DNA from: Verrucomicrobia bacterium LW23
GTDB taxonomy: Bacteria; Verrucomicrobiota; Verrucomicrobiia; Methylacidiphilales; UBA1321
Reading direction: 5' to 3'
DNA length: 64,000 nucleotides
Assembly (NCBI GenBank): GCA_003054695.1
Contig: QAZA01000045.1
Span: 941,956-1,005,955 of the forward strand
Position numbers and translations under genes: made by a program. Below the pieces are notes generated by a model. That model did no database searches. It had not been told where the DNA came from and worked only from the letters and a program-made list of their open reading frames with translations. Positions within the stretch are counted from its first letter, which is position 1. Each line of letters starts with the position of its first letter. Positions 396-51,496 of the stretch are shown here, one piece after another.

Positions 396-1082
396 ATGAT
401 CTCCCTCCCCAAACTGCGCCGCATGGCCGGCATCGGCTCCCTCATGCTTCTTTCCCTTGCCGCGGCCGCCACGCCTGGCATGTGCGAAAATCTTCTGCCC
501 AACGGCGATTTTGAGCAAGGCGAGTTTGGTTGGTATATCTTTGCGCCGCAGGAGGTTAAGGATAACTGTAGCTACGCCCGATCCTCCGACGAGCCGCAGG
601 AAGGCAGCCACTGTGGCAAGCTCAACTCCACCGTCGACGCCCGCTACGCCATTACCAACGGCCCCCGCAACCACGTGTGCAAGCCCGGCGATCGCTACCG
701 CGTGAGCGCCTGGGTTCGCGCCGGCCAGGACTTCGCCACCGGCGCCAAAACCCCCGGCTTCTGCATGCGCGTCTCCCTCTATTCCCAAATGGAGGGCTAC
801 GTTGACAGTAAAGCCGGCCACTTTATGCTGGGCCTGGGCAATAAAGCCTACTTCGGCAAAAGCATCAACCCGCTCGTCCCGGCCGACCCCGTGCCGCCGA
901 CATGGACCAAGCTGGAAGGCATTTTCGAACTCCCAGAAGACGTGCAGAAGGTCGGCGTCGCCATCTTCTCGTGGAACGGCCAGGGCACCCTCTACGTCGA
1001 CGACGTGCAGCTGGAGATTGTCGACAAAAGCTCCACGCTGACGCCGCTTATCGATTCCGACGAAAAAAAAACTGACGGCTGA
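396..1082 (+). CDS. secreted carbohydrate-binding (CBM4/9-like) protein; probable N-terminal part of the following heparinase
   Basis: The 228-residue product starts with a signal peptide (basic MISLPKLRR, then a hydrophobic stretch to about residue 30). A beta-sandwich of carbohydrate-binding type follows: ENLLPNGDFEQGEFGW near the start and TLYVDDVQLEIV near the end are typical CBM4/9 edge motifs. I chose ATG 396 rather than upstream in-frame starts because the signal peptide begins there. The frame ends in EKKTDG-stop, just after nine consecutive A at 1063-1071. The +1 frame stays open from that run straight into the heparinase-like gene. It is therefore probably the N-terminal module of one secreted polysaccharide-degrading enzyme, separated by a homopolymer frameshift. 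Confidence 0.75.
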   Translation: MISLPKLRRMAGIGSLMLLSLAAAATPGMCENLLPNGDFEQGEFGWYIFAPQEVKDNCSYARSSDEPQEGSHCGKLNSTVDARYAITNGPRNHVCKPGDRYRVSAWVRAGQDFATGAKTPGFCMRVSLYSQMEGYVDSKAGHFMLGLGNKAYFGKSINPLVPADPVPPTWTKLEGIFELPEDVQKVGVAIFSWNGQGTLYVDDVQLEIVDKSSTLTPLIDSDEKKTDG

Positions 1083-38827: not shown

Positions 38828-39856
38828 TCATCCCTGCCGGCGCAGCGTTTTGCCCGGGCGCCACACGCTCTCCACCAGCAGGCGCACCGGTACCTCCGGC
38901 ATCCCGCGCTCGCCGCGGTGCAGCATATCGATGAGGAAATCGACCGCCTTACGGCCAATAAGGGTATCGTTTTGATACGCACCGCTCATGTACTCGTCCT
39001 TGCTGGTAATGGCCAGGCACGCAAAGCCCACGTCCTCCGGAATCTTCAGCCCCGCCCGCTCCATCCCGCGCACCGTCTGGTCGAAAGAAACCACCACATC
39101 CGGCTTGTACTGGCGCACCCAGCGCACCATCTGGTCCCAATCCTCCGCCACACCTTTATAGTTCGGAACTACCTCCACCTGAGGGTTTTGCGAATGCCAC
39201 CACATCATCCCTCCAAACCATCCGTGATCCACCTTGCGGTCCCAGTCCTCCGACACACTCAGCCCGATGCGCTTGTACCCCAGCTTCTGTAACTCGCTCA
39301 GCACCAGGTTCATCGTATGGAAATGGTGGTTGGTGATGACATGCAGCGACGGGGGCTGAATGCTGTAGCCAAACGCCAGCACCGAAAGCTCCCCCAGCGT
39401 AAACGCCGGGCACCTGTGCTGCGCAGTGGGCTGCGGCGCCAGCAGCACGCCCTGAATATCCCGAGCGCGAAAGATGCGCTGCAGCTTCTCCGCCGTCATG
39501 CCCGGCTCGCTCAGCCAGAATTCCTCCAGCACATAGCCGCACTCCTCGGCGCGCGCCTTTGCGCCCATAAAGTACTCGCGAAACACCGGGATTTGCAGCA
39601 AGTGGTTCTGCCGCGGCCAGTTATTGATCCACGCAATGGTGGCCTGGTAGCGCGGCGCTGTCTTCGTGCGGCGGTAGGCGCTCAGCGCCGTCAGCATCGG
39701 GTCGTACTTATAGCCCAGCCGCGCGGCCACCTCGCGCACGCGGTCGCGAGTCTCCTGCGGCAGGCGCGGGCTGTTGCGCAGCGCCAGGCTTACGGTGGTG
39801 AAATGCAGCCCCACCTCGGCTGCGATATCGCGAATAGTGACGCGGGAAGAGGACAT
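38828..39856 (-). CDS. LacI-family transcriptional regulator
   Basis: The 342-residue protein has a LacI-type N-terminal helix-turn-helix and hinge (RVTIRDIAAEVGLHFTTVS, ALRNSPRLPQETRDRV, ARLGYKYDPML). A periplasmic-binding-protein-like effector domain follows, with VVVSFDQTVRGMERAGLKIPEDVG and a C-terminal DNDTLIGRKAVDFLIDML-like block (here YQNDTLIGRKAVDFL). It probably senses a sugar or related ligand. I chose MSSSRVTIRD as the start. It is divergent from the pseudopilin cassette with only about 80 bases between, so it may regulate that cassette, itself, or distant sugar genes. Confidence 0.93.
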   Translation of the reverse strand: MSSSRVTIRDIAAEVGLHFTTVSLALRNSPRLPQETRDRVREVAARLGYKYDPMLTALSAYRRTKTAPRYQATIAWINNWPRQNHLLQIPVFREYFMGAKARAEECGYVLEEFWLSEPGMTAEKLQRIFRARDIQGVLLAPQPTAQHRCPAFTLGELSVLAFGYSIQPPSLHVITNHHFHTMNLVLSELQKLGYKRIGLSVSEDWDRKVDHGWFGGMMWWHSQNPQVEVVPNYKGVAEDWDQMVRWVRQYKPDVVVSFDQTVRGMERAGLKIPEDVGFACLAITSKDEYMSGAYQNDTLIGRKAVDFLIDMLHRGERGMPEVPVRLLVESVWRPGKTLRRQG

Positions 39857-39939
39857 GACGCGCCTATTATTCAAATTGTAGACTTACGTTGCAATCAAAT
39901 CCGCTTTAAGCTTCAACGCGCATCACTTATCTTACGTTC

Positions 39940-40437
39940 ATGAACTCGCAGCACTCCACCCAGCCGGGCCGGCCTGTTACCCCCATGCCGCGCCGCAGCC
40001 GCAGCCATAGCGCCAGCGCCGGGTTTACCCTGGTGGAGGTCACCCTCTCCATCGGCCTGCTGAGCTTCTCCCTGCTGGCCCTGATTGGCCTGGTGCCCAG
40101 CGGCCTCGGTGCGCTGCGCGACTCCCTGGACCAAACCACGCGCGCCCAGATCGTCCAGCGCATCTCTAACGACCTGGCGCTCACCGACTTCTCCACGATC
40201 TCCACCGCCCCCATTTACTTTGATCAGGAAGGCCAGACCCTGCGCTCCTCCACCGGCGCCCACTATCGCGTCGACCTCTACGACACCGCGCCAACCCTTC
40301 CCGGCCTCACCGATACCGAGCAGGCCGGCCTGCACTCCCAGCTCAAATGCATCCGCATCGGCATCCAGCGTACCGAAGGCGAGCTGCAAAGCGCAACCAC
40401 GGTTCACTGGTACTCTCTGCAGGTCGCAAAGCGGTAA
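39940..40437 (+). CDS. pseudopilin-like protein, Verru_Chthon cassette protein B
   Basis: The 165-residue product carries a type IV prepilin leader with basic residues, then cleavage-type AG-FTLVEV and a hydrophobic helix (about 28-50). After it, LVPSGLGALRDSLDQTTRAQIVQRISNDL and LTDFSTI match, as I recall it, the B member of the Verrucomicrobia-specific 'Verru_Chthon cassette'. These proteins are presumed to be processed by a prepilin peptidase and assembled at the membrane, but no function is established. It is the first of three prepilin-like genes in a row, divergent from a LacI regulator. The cassette A protein is not upstream. Confidence 0.85.
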   Translation: MNSQHSTQPGRPVTPMPRRSRSHSASAGFTLVEVTLSIGLLSFSLLALIGLVPSGLGALRDSLDQTTRAQIVQRISNDLALTDFSTISTAPIYFDQEGQTLRSSTGAHYRVDLYDTAPTLPGLTDTEQAGLHSQLKCIRIGIQRTEGELQSATTVHWYSLQVAKR

Positions 40438-40458
40438 AAAGCGTTGGTTTGGCACTAA

Positions 40459-40472
40459 CTTTAGCGATAAAG
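40459..40472. repeat. 14-bp palindromic site CTTTA-N4-TAAAG (first of a cluster)
   Basis: CTTTAGCGATAAAG lies 21 bases after the cassette B stop. It is the first of 14 related sites listed in the cluster entry at 40459-51430. Confidence 0.85.
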
Positions 40473-40588
40473 TAATCAGTATTGAACGAACGTGCGCTTC
40501 CGTATGCTGTACCGATCCTGAAGGCAGATCTAAAACCAAGGGGCGGGAATACTGTCAGATTCTGGAGTCTTGCCCGCGTTTGGCGTAG

Positions 40589-40602
40589 CTTTATCGATAA
40601 AG
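40589..40602. repeat. perfect palindrome CTTTATCGATAAAG upstream of cassette C
   Basis: This fully symmetrical member of the site cluster ends 50 bases before the ATG of the cassette C gene. The identical sequence recurs inside tmk at 49623-49636. Confidence 0.85.
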
Positions 40603-40652
40603 GCACCGCAATCTTGCTCGTTTCCCCGATCAACTTCCCAGGACGCAACGCC

Positions 40653-41765
40653 ATGCACCGCGTATCGGCCTTTCCACATCCCGCACCAGCGCGGCCCCCG
40701 TCTATCCGCCGGGGTCTTCGTCGTCCGCAGGCGAGTAAAGCTTTTACGCTGGTGGAAGTACTTACCGCTGTGACACTTCTGCTCGTCATTATGGCGGTAA
40801 CCGCCACCGTGATGGACCAGACCACACGGGCATGGCGCCAAACCAACAGCAAAATCGAAGCATTCCAAAACGCGCGCGCCGTCTTTGATGTCATGACTGC
40901 GCGACTGGCCCCCACCACTCTCAACACGTACCTGGATTACTATGACGCCGCCGGCAATCCCTTCCGCCTCGCCACAAGCCCTGCCTCCTTTACCGCGGCC
41001 CGTTACGGCCGCTACTCGGACCTCCACTTTATCTGCGGCGCGGCTCAAACCCTCGTTAACCCGTTGCCGCCCAACTACTCCCGTGTATCCTCCGGCGCCG
41101 TCTTTTTCGTCGCCCCCACCGGTCTGGCCGCCGATGCGGACCGCCGAGGAACAGGCGGCCTGCTCAACGCCAGCGGCTTCTTCCTTGCCTTCGGCAGCGA
41201 TCGCGGCCACCGCCCCTACTACATCACCACGCCGGAGACGTATCGCTGGCGCCTCATGGAGCTCAGCGTCCCCACCGAGTCGCTCACTGTCTTCGGCACT
41301 TCCACGGGCAACGCGTGGTTTCAGACGCCCGTAAGCGAAGGAAAAGTCCGACCCGTGGCAGACAACGTCATCGCGCTGGTCGTCTGGCCCCGCCTCTCCC
41401 CTGCCGACGATCCGGCCGGAACCGCCCTCTCGACCGATTACACCTACAACTCCCGTACCGCCGCCACATGGTCGGGCTCTGTTCAACCCGTTCAGGCCCA
41501 TCAACTTCCGCCAACACTTCAGGTCACCATGGTTGTCATCGATGAAAGCGCCGCCCGCCGTCTTGCCACCGGTTCCACCCCGCCTCCGCAAATCGACGCC
41601 ATCACCGCCGGCCTCTTCAACGCAAACCCCGCATCCGGCGGCAACCTCGTGCAGCACTATGAGGAAGACCTGCGCACCCTGGAGCAACGTCTGACTGACA
41701 GCCGCATCGCGTACCGCATCTTTTCCTCCACAATCAGCCTGAAGGAGGCGAAATGGACGCCCTAA
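40653..41765 (+). CDS. pseudopilin-like protein, Verru_Chthon cassette protein C
   Basis: The 370-residue product has a basic leader (IRRGLRRPQ), prepilin cleavage-type KAFTLVEV and one membrane helix (about 32-55). The conserved DQTTRAWRQTNSKIEAFQNA and ARAVFDVMTARLAPTTLNTY stretches mark, as I recall it, the C member of the Verru_Chthon cassette. The large exported domain has no known fold. I took ATG 40653, preceded by AGGA at 40640, rather than earlier in-frame starts that would run through the palindromic site at 40589. It overlaps the next gene by 13 bases. Confidence 0.85.
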   Translation: MHRVSAFPHPAPARPPSIRRGLRRPQASKAFTLVEVLTAVTLLLVIMAVTATVMDQTTRAWRQTNSKIEAFQNARAVFDVMTARLAPTTLNTYLDYYDAAGNPFRLATSPASFTAARYGRYSDLHFICGAAQTLVNPLPPNYSRVSSGAVFFVAPTGLAADADRRGTGGLLNASGFFLAFGSDRGHRPYYITTPETYRWRLMELSVPTESLTVFGTSTGNAWFQTPVSEGKVRPVADNVIALVVWPRLSPADDPAGTALSTDYTYNSRTAATWSGSVQPVQAHQLPPTLQVTMVVIDESAARRLATGSTPPPQIDAITAGLFNANPASGGNLVQHYEEDLRTLEQRLTDSRIAYRIFSSTISLKEAKWTP

Positions 41766-42397
41766 CGCCCGTTGTTTGCAGGACTTTAACGATACAGTTT
41801 GTGCCTTCACGACGTTTGCGAGCCGCATTCTCACTCGTCGAGCTCATTCTTGTCCTCGCGCTTATCTCGATCCTCGTCACCCTCTCCATCCCGTTGATGC
41901 ACAACATCACGCGGGGCAACTCCTTAACCCGGGCCGGCCAGACAGTCGGCGACCAGCTTGCCCTCGCACGACAGGAAGCCGCCGGGCGAAACCGCCCCGT
42001 ACAAGTGCGCTTCATCAAATTCCCCACGGGCGCAACGGGTTACAGGGGGATGCAGCTCTGGGCTCCCTCTCCCACCAACATCACCGTATTCGCCCCGATC
42101 AGCCGCATCGCCATACTTCCCGAGGGTGTCGTCCTCGCCAGGACATCCCAGCTCTCCCCGCTGCTAACCAGTGCCTCCGTGGTGGATAAAAGCGAGACGT
42201 TCCCCGGAATCGGCCCCGTAACCTACTGCGCCTTCCGCTTTCGCCCCGGCGGCTCCACGGATCTCGCGTTCTCCTCCGTAAACAATTTTGTTACAGTGGT
42301 TTACGCCAAGGATGAAGCAGCCGAAACGCCTCCCGCCAACTACTTTGCTGTCCAGGTCGATCCCGTCAACGGCCGCACTCGCCTCTTTCAGCCCTGA
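41753..42397 (+). CDS. pseudopilin-like protein, Verru_Chthon cassette protein D
   Basis: The 214-residue product has the leader VPSRRLRA, cleavage-type AFSLVEL and a membrane helix, then ITRGNSLTRAGQTVGDQLALARQEAAGRNRPVQVRF, which matches my recollection of the D member of the cassette. ATG 41753 is supported by a strong AAGGAGG five bases upstream, inside the end of the C gene, so the two are translationally coupled. A one-mismatch copy of the palindromic site (41784-41797) lies in the leader-coding part. A GTG at 41801 would also give a prepilin leader. Confidence 0.87.
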   Translation: MDALTPVVCRTLTIQFVPSRRLRAAFSLVELILVLALISILVTLSIPLMHNITRGNSLTRAGQTVGDQLALARQEAAGRNRPVQVRFIKFPTGATGYRGMQLWAPSPTNITVFAPISRIAILPEGVVLARTSQLSPLLTSASVVDKSETFPGIGPVTYCAFRFRPGGSTDLAFSSVNNFVTVVYAKDEAAETPPANYFAVQVDPVNGRTRLFQP

Positions 42398-42409
42398 GCT
42401 CCGCTTTAC

Positions 42410-43846
42410 ATGCGTAACATCTTTCATTCCAGCGTCTTCCTGCTTGCTATTGCACTCACTTCAACCGATCTTCGCGCCCAGGGAGATATCACCCTGCCTC
42501 TGGTTAATGGCAGTTTCGAGGATGGCACCACTGGCTGGACCATTCACGCGCCCGAGGGCACAACGGCCGCTGAGTCGATGCCCGATGCTGCCTCGTTGGG
42601 CCGCAAAGGTTTGCGCATTACCAACCCCGCCGCCGGCAATGGATTCGAGGTCATCAGCGGACCTCTTCCTGTCAACCCTGGCAAAACCTATTCCGTCAGC
42701 TTCTGGAGCGGCGGGGGCGGTCGCAAGCCAGGCGTTGCCTCGGCAAAAATGGTATTTACCCGCCCCAAAGCCGCAGGTGGGGTGGAAATCCTCCAGCCCG
42801 CAATGGCCAGCATCCGCAAATGGCCGGGCGCTGAAATCAGCGGCGGCCTCTATTTTGGAAACGTCATCATGGCAGCCGCCGCCCCCGAGGGGGCTACGGA
42901 ACTACGCATTCATATCATCCCCAAGCGGGGCGCGGAGGTAGAGAGCTCTGTGGATATTGACGACTTTATCGTTAAAGAGTTGGCGGATGTCGCTCCTCAA
43001 GCCCCGCGAGACCCTAAACTCGGCAACCCTGTTCCCCCCACAGATCCCGCACAGCTGGAAGCCTGGCTCACCGAAATCCGGAACGACCCATGGCGCGGCA
43101 AAAAGCCCCCTCGCATCGTCCTAAAGCTTGACGACTTCAAGGCGGTAAAGGGTGGCGGCATTCATCAGCGCTGGCTGCGCGTGGCCGACTATGCCGCGCA
43201 AAAGCAAATAAAACTAAGCTTCGGCATCATCGGCAATGGCATGGAGACCGATGCAAATGCCTTCTACACATGGGTTAAGGAGAAGCATGCCGCAGGCCAG
43301 ATCGAATTCTGGCACCACGGCTACGACCACGCTGGGGACGGAAAAATCATGGAGTTCAGTGGCCAGCCGTTCGAGCATCAGAGGGAGCATATGGCCCGCA
43401 CCCAGCAAATCGCCAAAGACAAGCTGGGCTTTGCATTCACCTCCTTTGGAGCCCCCTTTAACGCTACAGATGCCGCCACCTTGCGTGTTCTACAGGATGA
43501 ACCGGACCTGAAGGTATGGATGTACGGCAATGCCCGGACGCCCGCCGGCAAAATCGTGCTTCAGCGAGCTTTTAACGTCAACCTGGAGTCCCCCACCATT
43601 ATCGCCAACTACGGTGCCTTCATCCAAGGCTACGCCCACAATCGCGGCGCCGAGTACTTTGTGCTTCAGGGCCATCCCGCCGGTTGGGGTGACGATCGCT
43701 ATGCCGAATTCCAGAAAATCATCGAATTCCTCCTGGAACAAAAAGCGCAATTCGTTCTACCGCGGGACTTTATCGCAAACCCGCCCGCTCCGGTGATACT
43801 TCCAGCAGAGGCCGGCTCGGTCAAAAAGGAATCAGTGGCAGACTAA
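42410..43846 (+). CDS. secreted CBM-type plus polysaccharide-deacetylase-like protein
   Basis: The 478-residue product starts with a signal peptide (about 1-24) and a CBM4/9-like beta-sandwich (about 28-190, LVNGSFEDGTTGWTI to SVDIDDFIVKEL). A NodB-like deacetylase barrel follows: VLKLDDFK (metal Asp pair), FGIIGNGM, EFWHHGYDH (two metal His) and VLQGHPAGWGD. It probably binds and N- or O-deacetylates a polysaccharide outside the cytoplasm. It starts 12 bases after cassette D, so it is very likely in the same transcript, which hints that the pseudopilin-like complex acts together with a polysaccharide-modifying enzyme. An exact CTTTA-N4-TAAAG site lies inside it at 42964-42977. Confidence 0.8.
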   Translation: MRNIFHSSVFLLAIALTSTDLRAQGDITLPLVNGSFEDGTTGWTIHAPEGTTAAESMPDAASLGRKGLRITNPAAGNGFEVISGPLPVNPGKTYSVSFWSGGGGRKPGVASAKMVFTRPKAAGGVEILQPAMASIRKWPGAEISGGLYFGNVIMAAAAPEGATELRIHIIPKRGAEVESSVDIDDFIVKELADVAPQAPRDPKLGNPVPPTDPAQLEAWLTEIRNDPWRGKKPPRIVLKLDDFKAVKGGGIHQRWLRVADYAAQKQIKLSFGIIGNGMETDANAFYTWVKEKHAAGQIEFWHHGYDHAGDGKIMEFSGQPFEHQREHMARTQQIAKDKLGFAFTSFGAPFNATDAATLRVLQDEPDLKVWMYGNARTPAGKIVLQRAFNVNLESPTIIANYGAFIQGYAHNRGAEYFVLQGHPAGWGDDRYAEFQKIIEFLLEQKAQFVLPRDFIANPPAPVILPAEAGSVKKESVAD

Positions 43847-43913
43847 ATTTGCGCAGCTTCTCTAGCAATAGGCCGAGGCTTGCTTCATGCATAAGCGTAC
43901 CTCACGTTCATCA

Positions 43914-44609
43914 TTAGCGGCGCAATGAAAAGAGCCCTTCGGATCCAATACACAGATCGAGAAAGTCTTGCCAGTTGATGTTAAGATAAGGATCAATCTC
44001 CTTAATCCGCAACATCGTTCGCTGCTCAATCTCCTTCATCGTCTGATCGATCGATCGAGAAACCTTGCTTTCGTGCCACCCGTACATGCGAGCCACTTCA
44101 CGCTGCATAAGTCCCTGGAGATAAACGAGTTGCAAAAGGATTAGCTGCTCGGCAGGGGTCTGCTCAATGGCGTATTTCAAGGCACGTCGCATCACTTCCT
44201 GAAGATCGGAATCAATCGCCTGGTTGCCACTGCTGCCAGGCAGTAAGTCAAAGTTATTGACATCATCCTCAGGGTCGTGCCCCGGCAACGTAGCCTGAAA
44301 CTTCTGTCGTCGCTTCAAATCCACCAGGCGATGAAGCGAAACCGTAACCAGCCACGTGTATAAACTGCACTTGCCGTGGTACTTAAGAAAGAGCGGCGCC
44401 TTTCCTTCCCGGCCTACCGCGCACTCGCTCCACAAATCGCCCAGCAAATCGCCCGCTTCGGTTTCGGACGCGCCCCGGCTGATCAGATGGCTCATCAACC
44501 GCCCATTCGCTCGATCACGCAGCGTCGTAAAGGCGTTAGAGTCCCCCTCCAGGCAAAGCTGGACGAGGCTAAAGTCCTCCTGATGGGCCGCGCTGTTCGC
44601 GTCAGTCAT
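43914..44609 (-). CDS. RNA polymerase sigma factor, ECF-like sigma-70 family
   Basis: The 231-residue protein has a region-2 helix set (FTTLRDRANGRLMSHLISR, SLYTWLVTVSLHRLVDLKRR) and a region-4 helix-turn-helix (TPAEQLILLQLVYLQGLMQREVARMYGWHESKVSRSIDQTM). No anti-sigma gene is adjacent. I chose MTDANSAAHQ at 44609 because region 2 begins shortly after. It is the last gene of the minus-strand run that starts with ispF and is separated by about 160 bases from tatC. Its promoters and targets are unknown. Confidence 0.88.
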   Translation of the reverse strand: MTDANSAAHQEDFSLVQLCLEGDSNAFTTLRDRANGRLMSHLISRGASETEAGDLLGDLWSECAVGREGKAPLFLKYHGKCSLYTWLVTVSLHRLVDLKRRQKFQATLPGHDPEDDVNNFDLLPGSSGNQAIDSDLQEVMRRALKYAIEQTPAEQLILLQLVYLQGLMQREVARMYGWHESKVSRSIDQTMKEIEQRTMLRIKEIDPYLNINWQDFLDLCIGSEGLFSLRR

Positions 44610-44770
44610 GTAGACAGTGTGGTAGAAGAGCTGAAGAGTGGCCAGGGGCCGGCTATGGTCATAAATGCCGCCGCTCGGGCAGCAATCCGGCAAAATCCTA
44701 CAGCGTCGGGGCGTGCCGGTCAACGGCGAACATGCAACCTTTACGTGCAAGCCGAAACCGGAATCTCCCT

Positions 44771-45550
44771 CTACCGCCGTGCCGCTTCTCGCCGCGCCAA
44801 GCCGGCTTCCCGCCATTTCATAATAAAGATGCAGCCTTCATAAAAAAGGTACATAGGCAGGGAGAGAAGTGTCAACGAGAACAGATCTGAACTTGGCGTT
44901 ATGCAACAAGCTGCGATAAATATCGCTACAATAGCATGCCGTCGATACTCCTGTAAAAAGCTGCTGGACACAATGCCAAAGAAATGTAACACCAGTAATA
45001 CAAGCGGCATCTCAAAAGCAAGCCCAAAACCAATAAGCATCTGCAGAACAAAATCAAGATAGTTCTTGATTGTCCAGGTGGCATTAAGATGGAGCCACTT
45101 ATTGTAGTCTAAAAAGAACTGAAGTGTTATCGGCAGCACAAGATAATAGCAAAAGACAACCCCCAATACAAACAAAATCGCTCCCGCCGCAAATACCGGA
45201 AGCACAAGGGCTTTCTCCTGCTTGGTAAGAGCAGGTAAAACAAACTGAGCTACAAAATAAAGGATGAGTGGCAACGCCATTACAAGCCCGCTAAAAAGCC
45301 CTATGCTAATATGAATGGAGAAAGGATCAAGAACGCTAAGTGTGTTAAGAAACTTTTCGGGATCCTGACCAATGACAACAAGCGGCCTCTGCAAAATAGT
45401 AAATATTTCTCGCGAAAAATAGAGGCAAAAAGTGCCCGTTACAGTAAGTGCAACCACGCAACGGATAATCATCCAGCGGAGATCTTCCAGATGCCCCAAC
45501 AGGGGTTTCTGCTCCAGTTGCTCCTCGGGATCGTGGTCTTGGGCCGTCAT
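44771..45550 (-). CDS. tatC: Sec-independent protein translocase TatC
   Basis: The 259-residue integral membrane protein has six predicted helices and the TatC hallmarks. The N-terminal KPLLGHLEDLRWMIIRC contains the conserved H-L-x-E/D-L-R signal-binding motif, and VLPALTKQEKALVLPVFAAGAILFVLGVVFCYY and IGFGLAFEMPLVL carry the conserved Phe/Pro/Glu residues. It recognises twin-arginine signal peptides of folded exported proteins. No tatA or tatB is in the window. Its codon use is more AT-rich than that of its neighbours. It begins 12 bases after thiE. Confidence 0.95.
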   Translation of the reverse strand: MTAQDHDPEEQLEQKPLLGHLEDLRWMIIRCVVALTVTGTFCLYFSREIFTILQRPLVVIGQDPEKFLNTLSVLDPFSIHISIGLFSGLVMALPLILYFVAQFVLPALTKQEKALVLPVFAAGAILFVLGVVFCYYLVLPITLQFFLDYNKWLHLNATWTIKNYLDFVLQMLIGFGLAFEMPLVLLVLHFFGIVSSSFLQEYRRHAIVAIFIAACCITPSSDLFSLTLLSLPMYLFYEGCIFIMKWREAGLARREAARR

Positions 45551-45562
45551 ACCTGCACAACC

Positions 45563-46234
45563 TTATCGCCTCTCCGCAGCAAGCGCATCCCCAAAATGCG
45601 CGTCCAGCATGCGGCGAATCGCTGCGCAGTTGCCACGCACATCCTCCCCCTTCAGCAGGGCGGAGACGACGACAATACGTTCTGCGCCGGCCGCAAGCAC
45701 CTGCGGCAACGTGCGGGCATTGACCCCGCCGATGCAAAACTGAGGCAATGTAACGCGGTCCCGCACTTGCTGAATGAGGCGCAGGCCCACCGGCGTGTAG
45801 TCCGGCTTGGTTGGCGTAGCGTACAGCGGACCGACACCGATATAGTCCGGGCCTTCTGCGGCGGCATTCACGGCCTGTTCAACGCTATGCGTCGATTTTC
45901 CCACAATTTTTCCCGCGCCTAGAATGCAGCGCACGGCGCTGACCGCATAGTCTTCCTGGCCGACATGCGCACCGTCTGCGTCCAGTTCGCAGGCGATCTC
46001 AGGATAGTCGTTAACGATAAAGATGCCCCCAAACGAGCGAACAACGGGCAAAACAGCCTCGCCAACTGCTAAAATCTCTCCTTTCGTGCGATTTTTTGCG
46101 CGAAGCTGGAGAATGTCCACTCCGCCAAGAAGCATCTCCTCCGCAAGTTGGGCAGGGTCCCGATCGCCAGTGTATGCGAGATCCAGGATACCATAGAAAC
46201 GCCCGAACTGGAGGCGTCTCTGAGCGGAATTCAT
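45563..46234 (-). CDS. thiE: thiamine phosphate synthase
   Basis: The 223-residue TIM barrel joins the thiazole and pyrimidine halves of thiamine. It shows LQLRAKN (pyrophosphate-binding Arg/Lys), FIVNDYPEIACELDADGAHVGQED, GKSTHSVEQA, YIGVGPLYATPTKPD and FCIGGVNARTLPQVLAAGAERIVVVSAL, all in family order. I chose the ATG at 46234. It lies between accC and tatC in the housekeeping run, with a palindromic site inside it (46009-46022) and another 14 bases upstream of the start (46249-46262). No other thiamine genes are near. Confidence 0.95.
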   Translation of the reverse strand: MNSAQRRLQFGRFYGILDLAYTGDRDPAQLAEEMLLGGVDILQLRAKNRTKGEILAVGEAVLPVVRSFGGIFIVNDYPEIACELDADGAHVGQEDYAVSAVRCILGAGKIVGKSTHSVEQAVNAAAEGPDYIGVGPLYATPTKPDYTPVGLRLIQQVRDRVTLPQFCIGGVNARTLPQVLAAGAERIVVVSALLKGEDVRGNCAAIRRMLDAHFGDALAAERR

Positions 46235-46289
46235 AGGAAACACAGTGGCTTTAACGTTACAGCAGAAGTTCGGCGATCGAATGCTTCCC

Positions 46290-47633
46290 TTAGCGCTTGA
46301 AGAACCGCTCGATGAAATGCGTGGAGTACTGGCCACGACGAAAATCGGGGTCGCGCAGAATCTGCTGGCCAAGCGGGATCGTGGTATGGATACCTGTAAT
46401 CTTATACTCGTGCAGCGCGCGATCCATGCGGTCCATTGCCGTGCGGCGATCGGGGCCGAACGCAATCAGCTTTGCGATCATCGAGTCGTAATAAGGCGGG
46501 ATGTGATAGCCTGTATACGAGTGTGAATCGACACGAATTCCATGCCCGCCGGGAGGAAGGTAAAAATTGATGCGACCAGCGGAAGGACGGAAGTCGTTGT
46601 CGGGATCCTCGGCGTTGACGCGGAATTCAATCGCATGTCGTTGAGGCTGAAGATCATCGAATTCCCGACCAAGGCGCTCACCGGCAGCAAGTTTGATCTG
46701 CTCGCGCACCAGGTCAATGCCATAAACTTCTTCGGTCACAGGATGTTCTACCTGTATTCGGGTGTTCATCTCCATGAAGTAGAAATTGCCCTTGTCATCC
46801 ACCAAAAACTCCAGCGTGCCGGCACCTTCATAGTTCACGGCTTCGGCCAGCTTGATGGCCGCGCGGCCCATTGCTTTGCGGAGCGCAGGGGTCATGAGGG
46901 GTGAGGGCGATTCTTCCAGCAGCTTTTGATTGCGGCGCTGGATGGAGCAGTCGCGCTCGCCAATGTGGACGACTTTGCCGTACTTGTCGCCAAGCACCTG
47001 AATCTCAACGTGATGCGGATGCTCGATCAGCTTCTCGATATACACGGTACCGTTCCCGAACGCCTTCTCGGCCTCCAGCTTGGCCGCGTTGAAACCCTGT
47101 ACCAGGCTTACATCATTATGTGCTGGGCGCATGCCGCGGCCGCCGCCACCTGCAACTGCTTTAATGATAACAGGATAGCCGATCTGTGCGGCTACTTTCA
47201 GGGCCTGCTGGTCATTCTCTACCACGCCGGCGCTGCCGGGCGTAACGGGCACGCCAACTTTGCGGGCCGTTTCGCGGGCCACGGCCTTGTCGCCCATCAT
47301 GCGGATGGAAGAGGATTTGGGGCCAATAAATTTGATCTTGCAGCTCTCGCATACCTCCGCAAACTGCGCGTTCTCGGACAGGAAACCATAGCCGGGGTGG
47401 ATCGCGTCGACATCTCCAATCTCAGCGGCGCTGATTATGCGGTCGATCTTGAGATAGCTTTCAGAGGCGGGAGCTTTACCGATACAGATTGCTTCGTCCG
47501 CCAGCTTTACGTGGAGGGAATCGACATCAGCATCGGAGTAGACGGCCAGCGTACGAATCCCGAGATCGCGGCAGGCGCGGATGACCCGGAGCGCGATTTC
47601 GCCACGGTTGGCGATCAAAATCTTGTCAAACAT
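46290..47633 (-). CDS. accC: acetyl-CoA carboxylase biotin carboxylase subunit
   Basis: The 447-residue ATP-grasp enzyme carboxylates biotin on AccB in the first committed step of fatty acid synthesis. It shows [20 protein letters not shown] at the N-terminus, the glycine-rich [12 protein letters not shown] loop (about 159-170), [36 protein letters not shown] with catalytic Glu/Arg residues, and the C-terminal biotin carboxylase domain ([12 protein letters not shown]). The length is typical. It is downstream of accB in the usual accB-accC order, with a palindromic site (47741-47754) in the spacer. Confidence 0.98.
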
Positions 47634-47774
47634 GGCAATTTATCTTGGAGATACTGCGGAATCGCCGTGCCGGCCGATCACGTGTGGCGGCGGTGCGATC
47701 TCAGGGAAAGGCAAAGCAACAGGTAGCATTGCGCGGCGCACTTTAACGTGAAAGTGCGCGGAAATGCGCATGGA

Positions 47775-48242
47775 TTAGAGCGGTTTAATCTGGAAAAGCG
47801 GCTTATTGAAGTCAACCGGCTTTCCATTCTCCACAAGGACTTCGGTGACGATTCCGCGAACGTCCGCCTTGATTTCGTTCATCACTTTCATCGCCTCAAT
47901 AATGCAGACGACGGTGTCTTCGCGAACCTCGGAGCCGACATCCACGTAAGGCGCGGATGTGGGGGTGGGGCTGCGGTAAAACACGCCCACCATGGGGGAG
48001 ACGAGAGGGACCGTTGAGGGCGCGGGTGCCGCGGCGGGGGCGGCGGCTTCAGCGGAGGGCTGGGGGAGGGAGAGCTGGGGCTGCGGGGCGAGTGGCAGCA
48101 GGGGCGGGGCGGTGACGACCTGCACAGCTTCGGTGCCAGTGCGGCGGATGCGGATCTTGAACTCGGGCTTTTCGAGCTCGAACTCAGCGAGTCCATTTTT
48201 TGCAATCAGTTCAAGCAGAGCCTTGATCTCCTTTAAATCCAT
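47775..48242 (-). CDS. accB: biotin carboxyl carrier protein of acetyl-CoA carboxylase
   Basis: The 155-residue product has an N-terminal helical domain (MDLKEIKALLELIAKNGLAEFEL), a Pro/Ala-rich swinging linker (about 45-80) and a C-terminal biotinyl domain with CIIEAMKVMNEI, where K119 is the biotin-accepting lysine. It carries carboxybiotin between AccC and the carboxyltransferase. Two exact palindromic sites (48397-48410 and 48463-48476) sit upstream in the 230-base gap to holB. Confidence 0.98.
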   Translation of the reverse strand: MDLKEIKALLELIAKNGLAEFELEKPEFKIRIRRTGTEAVQVVTAPPLLPLAPQPQLSLPQPSAEAAAPAAAPAPSTVPLVSPMVGVFYRSPTPTSAPYVDVGSEVREDTVVCIIEAMKVMNEIKADVRGIVTEVLVENGKPVDFNKPLFQIKPL

Positions 48243-48476
48243 GAAAAATCCTCGGGGCGGCGATTCAGAAGTGTGTCGGAAAGAGTGCCTAGCGACCTGT
48301 GGGGTGGCTGGGGCGTTTGAAGAGCGAGCGAGAACTATGCTCCTGAATTTTACGCATTACAAGCGAAAATCCATGAGGTTTTGATGATCGGGCTATCTTT
48401 ATCGTTAAAGGATACGCGTGTGCCAGGAAGATCGCGAAGTGTGCGTTTCTGTGATTTCTAAGCTTTAACGATAAAG

Positions 48477-49349
48477 CTAAACAATATCAGCGATTTTCAG
48501 GCAAGTCCGCTCCATTGCAAGAGCCTGATCCATGTTTTGCTGGAGGGCCTGGTGCAAATCTTCCAGGGCAAGGATGGCGCGAAGCGATGGTTCGCTGGCG
48601 CCGGGGCTGGATGGCGAGGTGATGGCTTTGCGTCGATACTCCTCAATGAGAGCTGCGATGGAATCCTGACGGGCGAGCTGGAAGTCGGCTTCCAGCAACG
48701 CTTTAAGTGTGTCTTCGTCGTCATCGTCGCCGGCGTTGGCTTCGTGGGCGTCCTGGATGGTTTCGCGGAGGCCGCGCCAGTACTCGCCGAGGACGGAGCT
48801 GAGCGCGTAGGCTTGTACGCCCGGCTTGGAACGAGTGGCAAACCATTGGTTAACAAGGGGTTGGTGCTGATCTGTTGTGGGCTGGTCGCCGGTAGTTGTG
48901 CCCAGCAGGTCAACACGAAGGCAGCGGGAGATGATGGTAGGGAGCAGGAGTTGCGGCCGTGTGGAGGCGAGGAGAATGAGCGTTGACGCGGGCGGTTCCT
49001 CCAAGGTTTTGAGGAACGCGTTGGCGGGCTCGGCCTGGCCCAGACACATGCGCTCGGGCCAGAGGATGAGGGCCACTTTTGTGTCGGCCGAGTATGCTTT
49101 AAGGAAAAGGGATCGCTCAAGGGAGCGGACTTGGTCGACGGAGATGCGTCGCGATTTGGAGCTGGGCTGAATGAGGTGAAAGTCAGGGTGCTCAGTGGGT
49201 TCCTTGCCCAGGATATTGCGGGCAAGGGTTTTGCTGAGATTCTCGAGTTCGGTCGGGCTTTCGCCCGTAAGTAAATAGGCGTGGCCCAGGCGACCTGCGG
49301 CTTTGCTGGCGGAAAAGCGGGATACTATATCGTTAAAGCTGAAAGGCAC
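48477..49349 (-). CDS. holB: DNA polymerase III delta' subunit
   Basis: The 290-residue clamp-loader subunit has the AAA+ fold with a degenerate P-loop (LLTGESPTELENLS), as expected for the non-hydrolysing delta' subunit. DFHLIQPSSKSRRISVDQVRSLER, NAFLKTLEEPPASTLILLASTRPQLLLPTIISRCLRV with the SRC motif, and a C-terminal helical domain follow. GTG 49349 is the best start because it opens MPFSFNDIV, the usual beginning, and overlaps the tmk stop. A longer frame to 49457 is only antisense-like tmk sequence. Coupling with tmk is a common arrangement. Confidence 0.9.
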   Translation of the reverse strand: MPFSFNDIVSRFSASKAAGRLGHAYLLTGESPTELENLSKTLARNILGKEPTEHPDFHLIQPSSKSRRISVDQVRSLERSLFLKAYSADTKVALILWPERMCLGQAEPANAFLKTLEEPPASTLILLASTRPQLLLPTIISRCLRVDLLGTTTGDQPTTDQHQPLVNQWFATRSKPGVQAYALSSVLGEYWRGLRETIQDAHEANAGDDDDEDTLKALLEADFQLARQDSIAALIEEYRRKAITSPSSPGASEPSLRAILALEDLHQALQQNMDQALAMERTCLKIADIV

Positions 49350-49989
49350 TGGTAACCTCCTTCCAGATTTCTTCGGAAACCACGTCTTTGGGGCGGGATG
49401 CTTCGATGCGCCGGAAGCGGCCGGGTTCGTTGCGTGCAATGATCTGGTAGCCGGCAATCACTTTATCGAAAAAGTGGCGGGATTCGGCCTCGAACCTGTC
49501 GGTTCCGGCTGATTCTTGGCCAGTGCGGGCTCGAATGCGCGCTTGGGATTCCTCGTAAGTGATATCGAGAAAGAGGGTTGCTGAGGGGAGGAGGGAACCT
49601 GATTTCGAGGCAAATGCGTTGACTTTATCGATAAAGTCCTCTGAAAGACAGCGTGCTGTGCCCTGGTATACCCGCGTGGAGTCTGTGAAGCGATCGGAGA
49701 GCACCCAGGCGCTGTTCCTCAGGGCGGGAGCGATCACTTTGTCGACGAGTTCGGCGCGGCTGGCCTCGAAGAGAAGGAGTTCCGCCTCGGGGCAGATCCC
49801 TTTGCCGACAGGGGAAAACTTAAGGATTTCGCGGAGTGCCTCTCCAAGGGGCGTGCCACCGGGTTCCCGCACGCAGATGACGTTGTCGCCACGCGCTTCC
49901 AGACGGGCTTTCAGGAGGGCAATCTGGGTGGATTTGCCGGAACCTTCGGTGCCTTCAAAGCTGATGAAGCGGAGGGGTGTGGCGATCAC
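49333..49989 (-). CDS. tmk: thymidylate kinase
   Basis: The 218-residue P-loop kinase converts dTMP to dTDP. The Walker A SFEGTEGSGKSTQ (about 9-21) is followed by VREPGGTPLGEALR (the DR-like substrate loop), VLSDRFTDSTRVYQG (DRY/F motif), LFLDI and the LID region RIRARTGQESAGTDRFE. A perfect palindromic site is embedded in the coding sequence at 49623-49636, and the TAA stop lies in another at 49325-49338. It overlaps the holB start by 17 bases. Confidence 0.96.
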   Translation of the reverse strand: MIATPLRFISFEGTEGSGKSTQIALLKARLEARGDNVICVREPGGTPLGEALREILKFSPVGKGICPEAELLLFEASRAELVDKVIAPALRNSAWVLSDRFTDSTRVYQGTARCLSEDFIDKVNAFASKSGSLLPSATLFLDITYEESQARIRARTGQESAGTDRFEAESRHFFDKVIAGYQIIARNEPGRFRRIEASRPKDVVSEEIWKEVTSAFQL

Positions 49990-50019
49990 GTGAATCGGGT
50001 GATTGTGGCAGCAAAAGGC

Positions 50020-51402
50020 TCAGGAGCGGAGTAATTCCTGGCCTTTGGCGGTATCTTTAACCTTAAAGCCGTGCGTTTCGATGGCTTTACGGAGTTCGTC
50101 GCTCAGTTTGAAGTCTTTGGCCTTGCGGGCGGCGCCGCGCTGGTCGAGCAGATCCTGAACTTCGTTCGGGATGCTCAGTTCAGGCTCTTTCAGGCCGAGA
50201 ATCGCGTTGATTTTGGTCCAGACGGCGCCAATTCCCTCTGGAAAGTGGCCAGAATCCATGAGTTTATTGGTTTCCGTAATGTAATTATGCAGGTGGCCGA
50301 TGGCGCCGGGCATGTCGAGGTCTTCGGCAAGGGTGTTGTAGAAGGTTTCGATGAATCCGCGGCCGGCCTCATCGGCGGGCTTGTCGGCTAAGGGGTTGCC
50401 GGCGAAGCGTTTACGCCATTCGTCGATGCGCTGGACGGTGGCTTTGGCGGCGTCCATTACTTGCCAGGTGAAGTTGAGATTTTGGCGGTACTGCACGTTG
50501 GCGAGGAGGGCGTAGCGGAGTACGCGGCCTTCGTAACCTTTTGCCAGCACGTCTCTTACGGTGAAGAAAGTGCCGTCTCGCTTGGACATTTTGCGGCCGT
50601 CGACAAGGAGGTGCTCGTTGTGCAGCCAGTAGCGGGCAAATTTTTTGCCGGTGGCGGCTTCGCTTTGGGCAATCTCGTTTTCGTGATGGGGGAATTTGAG
50701 GTCGACGCCTCCGCAGTGGATGTCGATTTCCTTGCCGAGGTAGTGCATGCTCATGGCGGAGCACTCGATGTGCCAGCCGGGGCGGCCTTTGCCCCAGGGG
50801 GAGTCCCAGGCGACGTCGCCATCGGCGGCTACCCATTTTTTCCACAGGACGAAGTCGCCGAAGCTTTCCTTTTCGTATTCGTCGTGGCTGACGCGGGCGC
50901 CGGCTTTCAGGCCGTCGAAGTCCAGGCCGCAGAGGCAACCGTATGGGCCGAAGGAACTTACGCGGAAGTAGACGGAGCCGTCGTCGCTGGGGTAGGCGTT
51001 GCCTTTTTCGACCAGCTGCGAGATGAGGCCGGTCATCTGCGGGATGTGGTCGGTGGCGTTGGGCATGTCGTCCTGGGGCTCGATATTGAGCTGGGCCATG
51101 TCTTCCAGGAAGGCTTTGGCGTAGCGGGCGGTGAATTCGCGCAGGGGGATGCCTTCGGCCTGGGCGCCTTTGATGGTTTTGTCGTCAACGTCGGTGCGTT
51201 GCATGACGAAGCGCACTTTATAGTTAAAGTTGCGCAAAACGCGCTGTAACAGGTCGGTAAAGATGTAGGCGCGGAAGTTGCCGATGTGCGCGAAGTTGTA
51301 GACGGTGGGGCCGCAGGCATACATCCTGACGTGCGGGGCTTCCAGGGGCTGGAAGTCCTCGATAGTGCGCGTGAAGGAGTTATAGAGGCGGAGCGGTCTC
51401 AT
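50020..51402 (-). CDS. cysS: cysteinyl-tRNA synthetase
   Basis: The 460-residue class I synthetase has the HIGH-type motif in YACGPTVYNFAHIGN (about 28-42), with the zinc-binding Cys just before it. Further zinc ligands are in GWHIECSAMSMHYLG and HCGGVDLKFPHHENEIAQSEA, and the KMSKRDG loop lies at about 272-278. A DALR-type helical C-terminal part with RGAARKAKDFKLSDELR completes it. Palindromic sites lie inside it at 50055-50068 and 51216-51229 and 15 bases upstream of the start at 51417-51430. Confidence 0.98.
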   Translation of the reverse strand: MRPLRLYNSFTRTIEDFQPLEAPHVRMYACGPTVYNFAHIGNFRAYIFTDLLQRVLRNFNYKVRFVMQRTDVDDKTIKGAQAEGIPLREFTARYAKAFLEDMAQLNIEPQDDMPNATDHIPQMTGLISQLVEKGNAYPSDDGSVYFRVSSFGPYGCLCGLDFDGLKAGARVSHDEYEKESFGDFVLWKKWVAADGDVAWDSPWGKGRPGWHIECSAMSMHYLGKEIDIHCGGVDLKFPHHENEIAQSEAATGKKFARYWLHNEHLLVDGRKMSKRDGTFFTVRDVLAKGYEGRVLRYALLANVQYRQNLNFTWQVMDAAKATVQRIDEWRKRFAGNPLADKPADEAGRGFIETFYNTLAEDLDMPGAIGHLHNYITETNKLMDSGHFPEGIGAVWTKINAILGLKEPELSIPNEVQDLLDQRGAARKAKDFKLSDELRKAIETHGFKVKDTAKGQELLRS

Positions 51403-51496
51403 GGGGAGGCGGGGAACTTTAAGGATAAAGTAACGGAAAAAGCAGGAATAGGATGGCGAAAACGGACGAAACAGGTGGTGGCGCGCCGGGTTTGCA

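Follow-up and report, generated by a model that had tools for sequence, protein, structure and literature searches.

A Verru_Chthon B-C-D cassette with a predicted carbohydrate-binding deacetylase in the slot of protein A in Verrucomicrobia bacterium LW23: a possible exchangeable type II secretion tip

Gene layout and cassette membership

The window analyzed here is a 64,000-nt stretch of the genome of Verrucomicrobia bacterium LW23 (GCA_003054695.1; contig QAZA01000045.1, positions 941,956 to 1,005,955, forward strand), and coordinates given without a contig number (C) are positions within it; loci that need to be told apart carry an L number. Four successive genes on the plus strand make up the unit under study: B (39940..40437), encoding a prepilin-leader protein that resembles the minor pseudopilin GspI; C (40653..41765), encoding a GspJ-like minor pseudopilin; D (41753..42397), encoding a GspH-like minor pseudopilin; and a gene (42410..43846) for a secreted protein with a CBM_4_9 domain and a DUF2334/CE4-like deacetylase domain, which lies in the slot held by A in sister cassettes. 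The start of D lies 13 nt inside the end of C. The deacetylase gene follows D by 12 nt, as a preliminary description of this DNA had stated, and the gap between B and C is 215 nt long, so that a second promoter could fit there. Divergent from B on the minus strand is a gene for a LacI-family regulator (38828..39856; Pfam LacI 3.8e-9, Peripla_BP_3 1.5e-6), likewise in agreement with that description, and the region between the two genes (39857..39939) contains a predicted LacI promoter and a candidate operator stretch.

The same description had identified the three prepilin-leader proteins as the B, C and D members of the Verru_Chthon cassette, and each of them scores above the NCBIfam curated cut-off of its family: B reaches 69.4 bits against TIGR02598 (cut-off 51.4), C reaches 279.6 bits against TIGR02599 (cut-off 256.5) and D reaches 133.8 bits against TIGR02596 (cut-off 70). 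Ordinary type II secretion and type IV pilin families, considered as a better match for B, C and D, were rejected; they score far worse, and mostly at the N-terminus. The LW23 genome has many complete copies of the cassette (TIGR02596, TIGR02598, TIGR02599, TIGR02600), and the copy in the window differs from them in having no large protein A and in carrying the CBM-deacetylase in the A position. Our literature search found no paper that names the Verru_Chthon cassette.

Protein A and its ancestral position

A search of the whole 64-kb window with the A profile gave no match, which upholds the earlier claim of a cassette without A as far as the window is concerned, and because the window lies well inside a 1.01-Mb contig, A has not been cut off by an assembly end. 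Genome-wide the claim does not hold. The LW23 assembly (6.6 Mb in 56 contigs, 95% complete) contains 17 A genes above cut-off, all of them elsewhere, together with 15 C genes (plus two weaker full-length ones) and about as many B and D genes, or about 17 cassette copies. Gene maps place A adjacent to the other genes in 12 cassettes and about 6 kb off in one; four C genes are without A (the window copy and those at C17:101k, C25:51k and C28:14k), and four A genes are solitary. Since A adjoins C at 52 of 54 loci in relatives, a missing A is unusual, and it is commoner in the LW23 genome than elsewhere. Absence in the relatives was read from fetched DNA; the table of A scores was not used alone for this because it scored only eight candidates per genome. 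Besides these copies, about 15 loci (e.g. L098, L031, L034 and L039) carry B/C/D(/A)-like pseudopilin clusters that score under the family cut-offs and make up a second, divergent set.

The expectation that A would normally lie upstream was not borne out. Most loci have the order B-C-A-D, a second large group has B-C-D-A and a few have A-B-C-D or D-B-C-A. When 73 C proteins were placed in a tree, by a quick method and with SH-aLRT support only, the window C fell within a 21-member clade (SH-aLRT 98%); of its 19 other members that have A, 18 show the order B-C-D-A. As nearly all of this clade is B-C-D-A, the deacetylase appears to sit in the former A slot, and we accordingly place the ancestral position of A, as reconstructed from gene order, directly after D. 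The GspK-like A of this unit would have been lost, be dispensable or act in trans. For the last of these possibilities the best candidate may be the solitary A gene at C11:369505-373275 (L081), whose predicted product groups with the A of the L101/L260 locus described below (support 1.0).

Relationship to the minor-pseudopilin tip of type II secretion

Several lines of evidence relate the cassette to the GspH-I-J-K tip (XcpU-V-W-X) of type II secretion systems. Glutamate at position +5 of the prepilin leader is invariant in B (35/35), C (63/63) and D (31/31) and was never seen in A, whose leader is readable in 37 of 45 sequences; the type II tip likewise has this residue in its I, J and H members and not in K. 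Among the 35 members of the B family, 28 match XpsI, 20 match PilV and 18 match GspI, and B aligns with the genome's own GspI at an hhalign probability of 95%. D matches XpsH (1.1e-5) and GspH (2.2e-4) and aligns with the genome's own GspH (hhalign E 1.2e-4). Both B and D fall below the curated GspI and GspH cut-offs and are therefore related to those equivalogs without belonging to them. In the A family 17 of 21 members match T2SS_GspK, at the N-terminus (best 3.4e-8), and the A N-terminus aligns with the genome's own GspK at an hhalign probability of 88%.

The AlphaFold model of C (pLDDT 90.7) retrieved in a fold search a Thermus type IV-like pilin (Z 11.4), EpsJ (11.2) and XcpW (10.5), the first unrelated chain scoring 5.5, and C is predicted on this basis to have a GspJ fold. 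The model of A is poor (pLDDT 72) and a fold search with its N-terminal part returned no usable match, so the fold of A is unconfirmed. A sequence search of the PDB yielded no real match with the A and C profiles and only chance or leader matches with the B profile.

Taking together the matches of A, B and D, the predicted fold of C and the pattern of Glu +5, we conclude that the cassette is homologous to a complete minor-pseudopilin tip in which A corresponds to GspK, B to GspI, C to GspJ and D to GspH, the A and B correspondences being based on N-terminal matches below cut-off. The common cassette order B-C-A also parallels gspI-J-K. There are differences as well: the Verru_Chthon cassettes are encoded apart from the core gsp genes, the LW23 genome has about 17 such alternative sets, the length of A is about 1300 aa compared with about 320 for GspK, and the window unit has no K member.

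A search of the genome for prepilin peptidase and GspE/GspF-type genes, which the preliminary description had proposed, found both the core machinery and the processing enzyme in this cell: one prepilin peptidase gene (PF01478) and one complete gspD-E-F-G-H-I-J-K operon, located on C17 and possessing its own ordinary tip (its GspH was assigned by position and by its hhalign match with D). Additional GspE/PilB-type ATPase genes are present, two of them neighbors on C9 beside a PilC-like gene. The simplest reading of this inventory would be one machine with many tips. In Myxococcus several minor-pilin sets share one machine (PMC7541494), and the minor pilin/PilY1 clusters of M. xanthus resemble the cassettes as exchangeable tip sets for a single apparatus; they differ in serving a type IV pilus, in including PilY1 and in numbering only three (PMC7541494). 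The window unit showed no recognizable PilY1-like gene. In Pseudomonas, secretion persists in xcpX (GspK) and xcpU mutants but fails when xcpV or xcpW is mutated (PMC6211770). The cassette counterparts of XcpV and XcpW are B and C. Since xcpX mutants still secrete, a GspI-GspJ core could work without GspK, and the B-C-D unit might do so in the same way.

Sugar context, the deacetylase and a proposed secretion tip

In the LW23 genome 9 of the 17 cassettes have a LacI gene no more than 6 kb away (expected 1.5, P 2.4e-5), as do 20 of 56 loci in relatives (a count of 22 compared with 3.9 expected, P 2.7e-10). This is an enrichment of about sixfold over a background of 4 per 503 kb that is itself overstated, as these four include the LacI gene of the window and a second one next to a distant B/C/D set. 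No sugar regulator is known for the Myxococcus minor pilin/PilY1 clusters. The closest relative of the window LacI among the fetched loci is the LacI of L101 (54% identical). Within 39857..39939 the predicted LacI promoter (TTGCAA, 17 nt, AATAAT) is on the minus strand, and it comes from a scan in which promoter sites overall were no more frequent than in shuffles. The stretch TTGCAATCAAATCCGCTTT in this same region is shared with two distant LacI orthologues, its score being reached in 0 of 300 shuffles; in the LacI upstream regions of these three deacetylase/cassette loci it sits near the LacI −35 box. We regard TTGCAATCAAATCCGCTTT as a candidate LacI operator, the candidate LacI-protected sequence within 39857–39939 being TTGCAATCAAA. 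Of the sugar-responsive LacI control suggested earlier, the association with LacI genes is supported as a class-wide pattern by the enrichment and the conserved promoter stretch, and the sugar ligand is presumed. Neighbors of the cassettes include GH2, GH42-like, GH78, GH106 and sialidase-like proteins, and many direct neighbors are housekeeping genes. A LacI/GntR-type regulator (C21:134158) also flanks one of the pseudopilin clusters below cut-off (C21:131515-134120).

The predicted enzyme scores 32.9 bits against DUF2334 (threshold 26) and above the gathering score for CBM_4_9, with Polysacc_deac_1 (CE4) just below its cut-off. Residues D242, H303, H307 and H422 are invariant among four to five homologues, so that the putative CE4/DUF2334 deacetylase has both the domain and the metal-binding Asp/His residues; by inspection it carries an ordinary signal peptide and no prepilin leader. 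The coupling of the cassette to a CBM-deacetylase that had been described earlier is supported. The linkage is also found in other lineages: of 86 relatives of the deacetylase (78 public loci), 10 have a pseudopilin gene immediately upstream (expected 2.2, P 8e-5), and such pairs span Opitutales, Cerasicoccus and Lentisphaerae. At one locus in another genus (L101, identical with L260) deacetylase, LacI, B, C and A genes stand side by side, and at L284 the deacetylase gene lies within the cassette. We considered the window as a direct orthologue of the L101 locus and rejected this, as the two C proteins belong to different clades, which implies that the linkage arose repeatedly or by shuffling.

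Two further arrangements of deacetylase genes were observed. The order LacI, single pseudopilin, deacetylase recurs in Lentisphaerae and Opitutales (L275, L267, L287, L278 and L294), and these loci are a minimal form of cassette-deacetylase coupling. At the start of the window a stand-alone DUF2334-type deacetylase gene ends (C45:941308-941991) and is followed by a gene for a small secreted CBM-like protein (window 396–1082; L063, L106); the two neighbors apparently encode separately both domains of the CBM-deacetylase. In Verruconatronum alginivorum (Opitutales) a PulG-like pseudopilin with 67 homologues in the genome is encoded in an alginate-induced operon (PMC13274419). That operon is similar to the window unit in that a pseudopilin is co-encoded with secreted polysaccharide-active enzymes, and different in that the pseudopilin is single rather than part of an I-J-H set and the enzymes are lyases and not a deacetylase (PMC13274419).

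With a probability of roughly 0.55, we favor the reading that the unit encodes a LacI-controlled, exchangeable type II secretion tip together with its client enzyme, a proposal in which we infer the function, co-transcription, the LacI ligand, the client relation and any action of A in trans. A sugar ligand would lift the repression by the LacI-type regulator; B, C and D would be processed by the single prepilin peptidase and would cap the pseudopilus built by the one Gsp machine; and the CBM-deacetylase, exported by Sec, would then be recruited as a client, leave through the secretin and deacetylate a polysaccharide. A would have been lost from its position after D, and either the GspI-GspJ core would suffice in its place or an A protein from one of the four solitary genes would act in trans. 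The pseudopilin machine acting on polysaccharide that was suggested earlier is better put as an alternative minor-pseudopilin tip for the type II system, one that probably serves the deacetylase as a client.

B, C and D might instead be minor pilins of the PilV/PilW/FimU type, priming a type IV pilus for adhesion or uptake and binding surface polysaccharide, with the deacetylase exported separately. The PilV matches in the B family, the further PilB/GspE-type ATPases (with the pair next to the PilC-like gene on C9) and the precedent of several minor-pilin sets on one pilus machine in Myxococcus (PMC7541494) agree with such a pilus. However, the XpsI/GspI, XpsH/GspH and GspK models match equally well or better, the linked enzymes are secreted carbohydrate-active proteins, and the top folds for C include EpsJ and XcpW of type II systems (yet the Thermus type IV-like pilin is their equal); we think this explanation unlikely. 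PilY1 caps type IV pili, and a deacetylase that functionally replaces A could similarly be borne at the tip and be pushed or displayed at the outer membrane. Its position in the exact ancestral slot of A, the pseudopilins directly upstream of such deacetylases in several lineages and a published discussion that likens PilY1 to the substrates of type II systems (PMC7541494) would suit this, but its ordinary signal peptide would not, and the genome retains solitary A genes while A and the deacetylase coexist in L260 and L284, so we hold such a replacement to be quite doubtful. Still less probable, in our judgment, is a decaying cassette from which A was deleted, leaving a remnant with the deacetylase as a chance neighbor: although A is adjacent at nearly all loci of relatives and three more C genes in LW23 lack it, none of B, C and D is disrupted and their scores are on a par with those of complete cassettes, the deacetylase gene is tightly spaced to D, and the linkage of pseudopilin and deacetylase recurs.

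For the preferred reading of a secretion tip with its client, the wider pattern suggests that each cassette is an exchangeable type II tip tuned to one polysaccharide. The Verru_Chthon family occurs in many copies per genome and has had no assigned function. A single model, that of an exchangeable GspI-J-K-H tip, would account for the number of copies as well as for the LacI regulators and the carbohydrate-active neighbors, and would give the cassette a role that is concrete and testable: a single machine fitted with many tips, each for one polysaccharide. The window unit, whose probable client is encoded where GspK would be expected, offers a compact case for testing this. A far-reaching version, in which about 17 substrate-specific, sugar-regulated tips serve one machine and the window enzyme replaces the GspK-like A to give an enzyme-tipped pseudopilus, we consider a long shot.

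The gap between B and C contains two CTTTAWCGWTAAAG palindromes (40459–40472 and 40589–40602, together spanning 40459..40602). We rejected them as LacI operators, since they belong to an array that extends over 11 kb without regard to gene borders and are probably not operators of the B-C-D-deacetylase unit. The array (40459–51430) comprises 17 CTTTAWCGWTAAAG-like palindromes (at least 12 of 14 positions) in both coding and intergenic DNA, with 13 matches at no more than two mismatches compared with 0.04 expected. Similar clusters occur at C5:106-113k and at C21:85-124k, near a DnaN-like gene; 509 kb of other LW23 sequence contained one site, and 29 relatives together gave one match. What seem to be identical, inverted copies of one gene set occur on C9 (L095, 2000–20000) and C10 (L096, 129000–147000). 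A palindrome and a ParB-like gene also correspond between these two contigs at a distance of tens of kb, and the copies are a large duplication or redundant assembly. The palindrome clusters lie near local GC-skew minima, canonical parS was not found in the three contigs read, and the array is possibly a lineage-specific parS-like or centromere-like motif or a chromosome-organizing one. The only ParB above cut-off is a chromosomal-type protein on C5 (C5:50849-51817; L139/L121), whose putative recognition helix, GKGRVAVSNALRLL, departs from the usual form GKSR(S/P)xVxN. This ParB may fit the palindrome array, with CTTTATCGATAAAG as its putative target.
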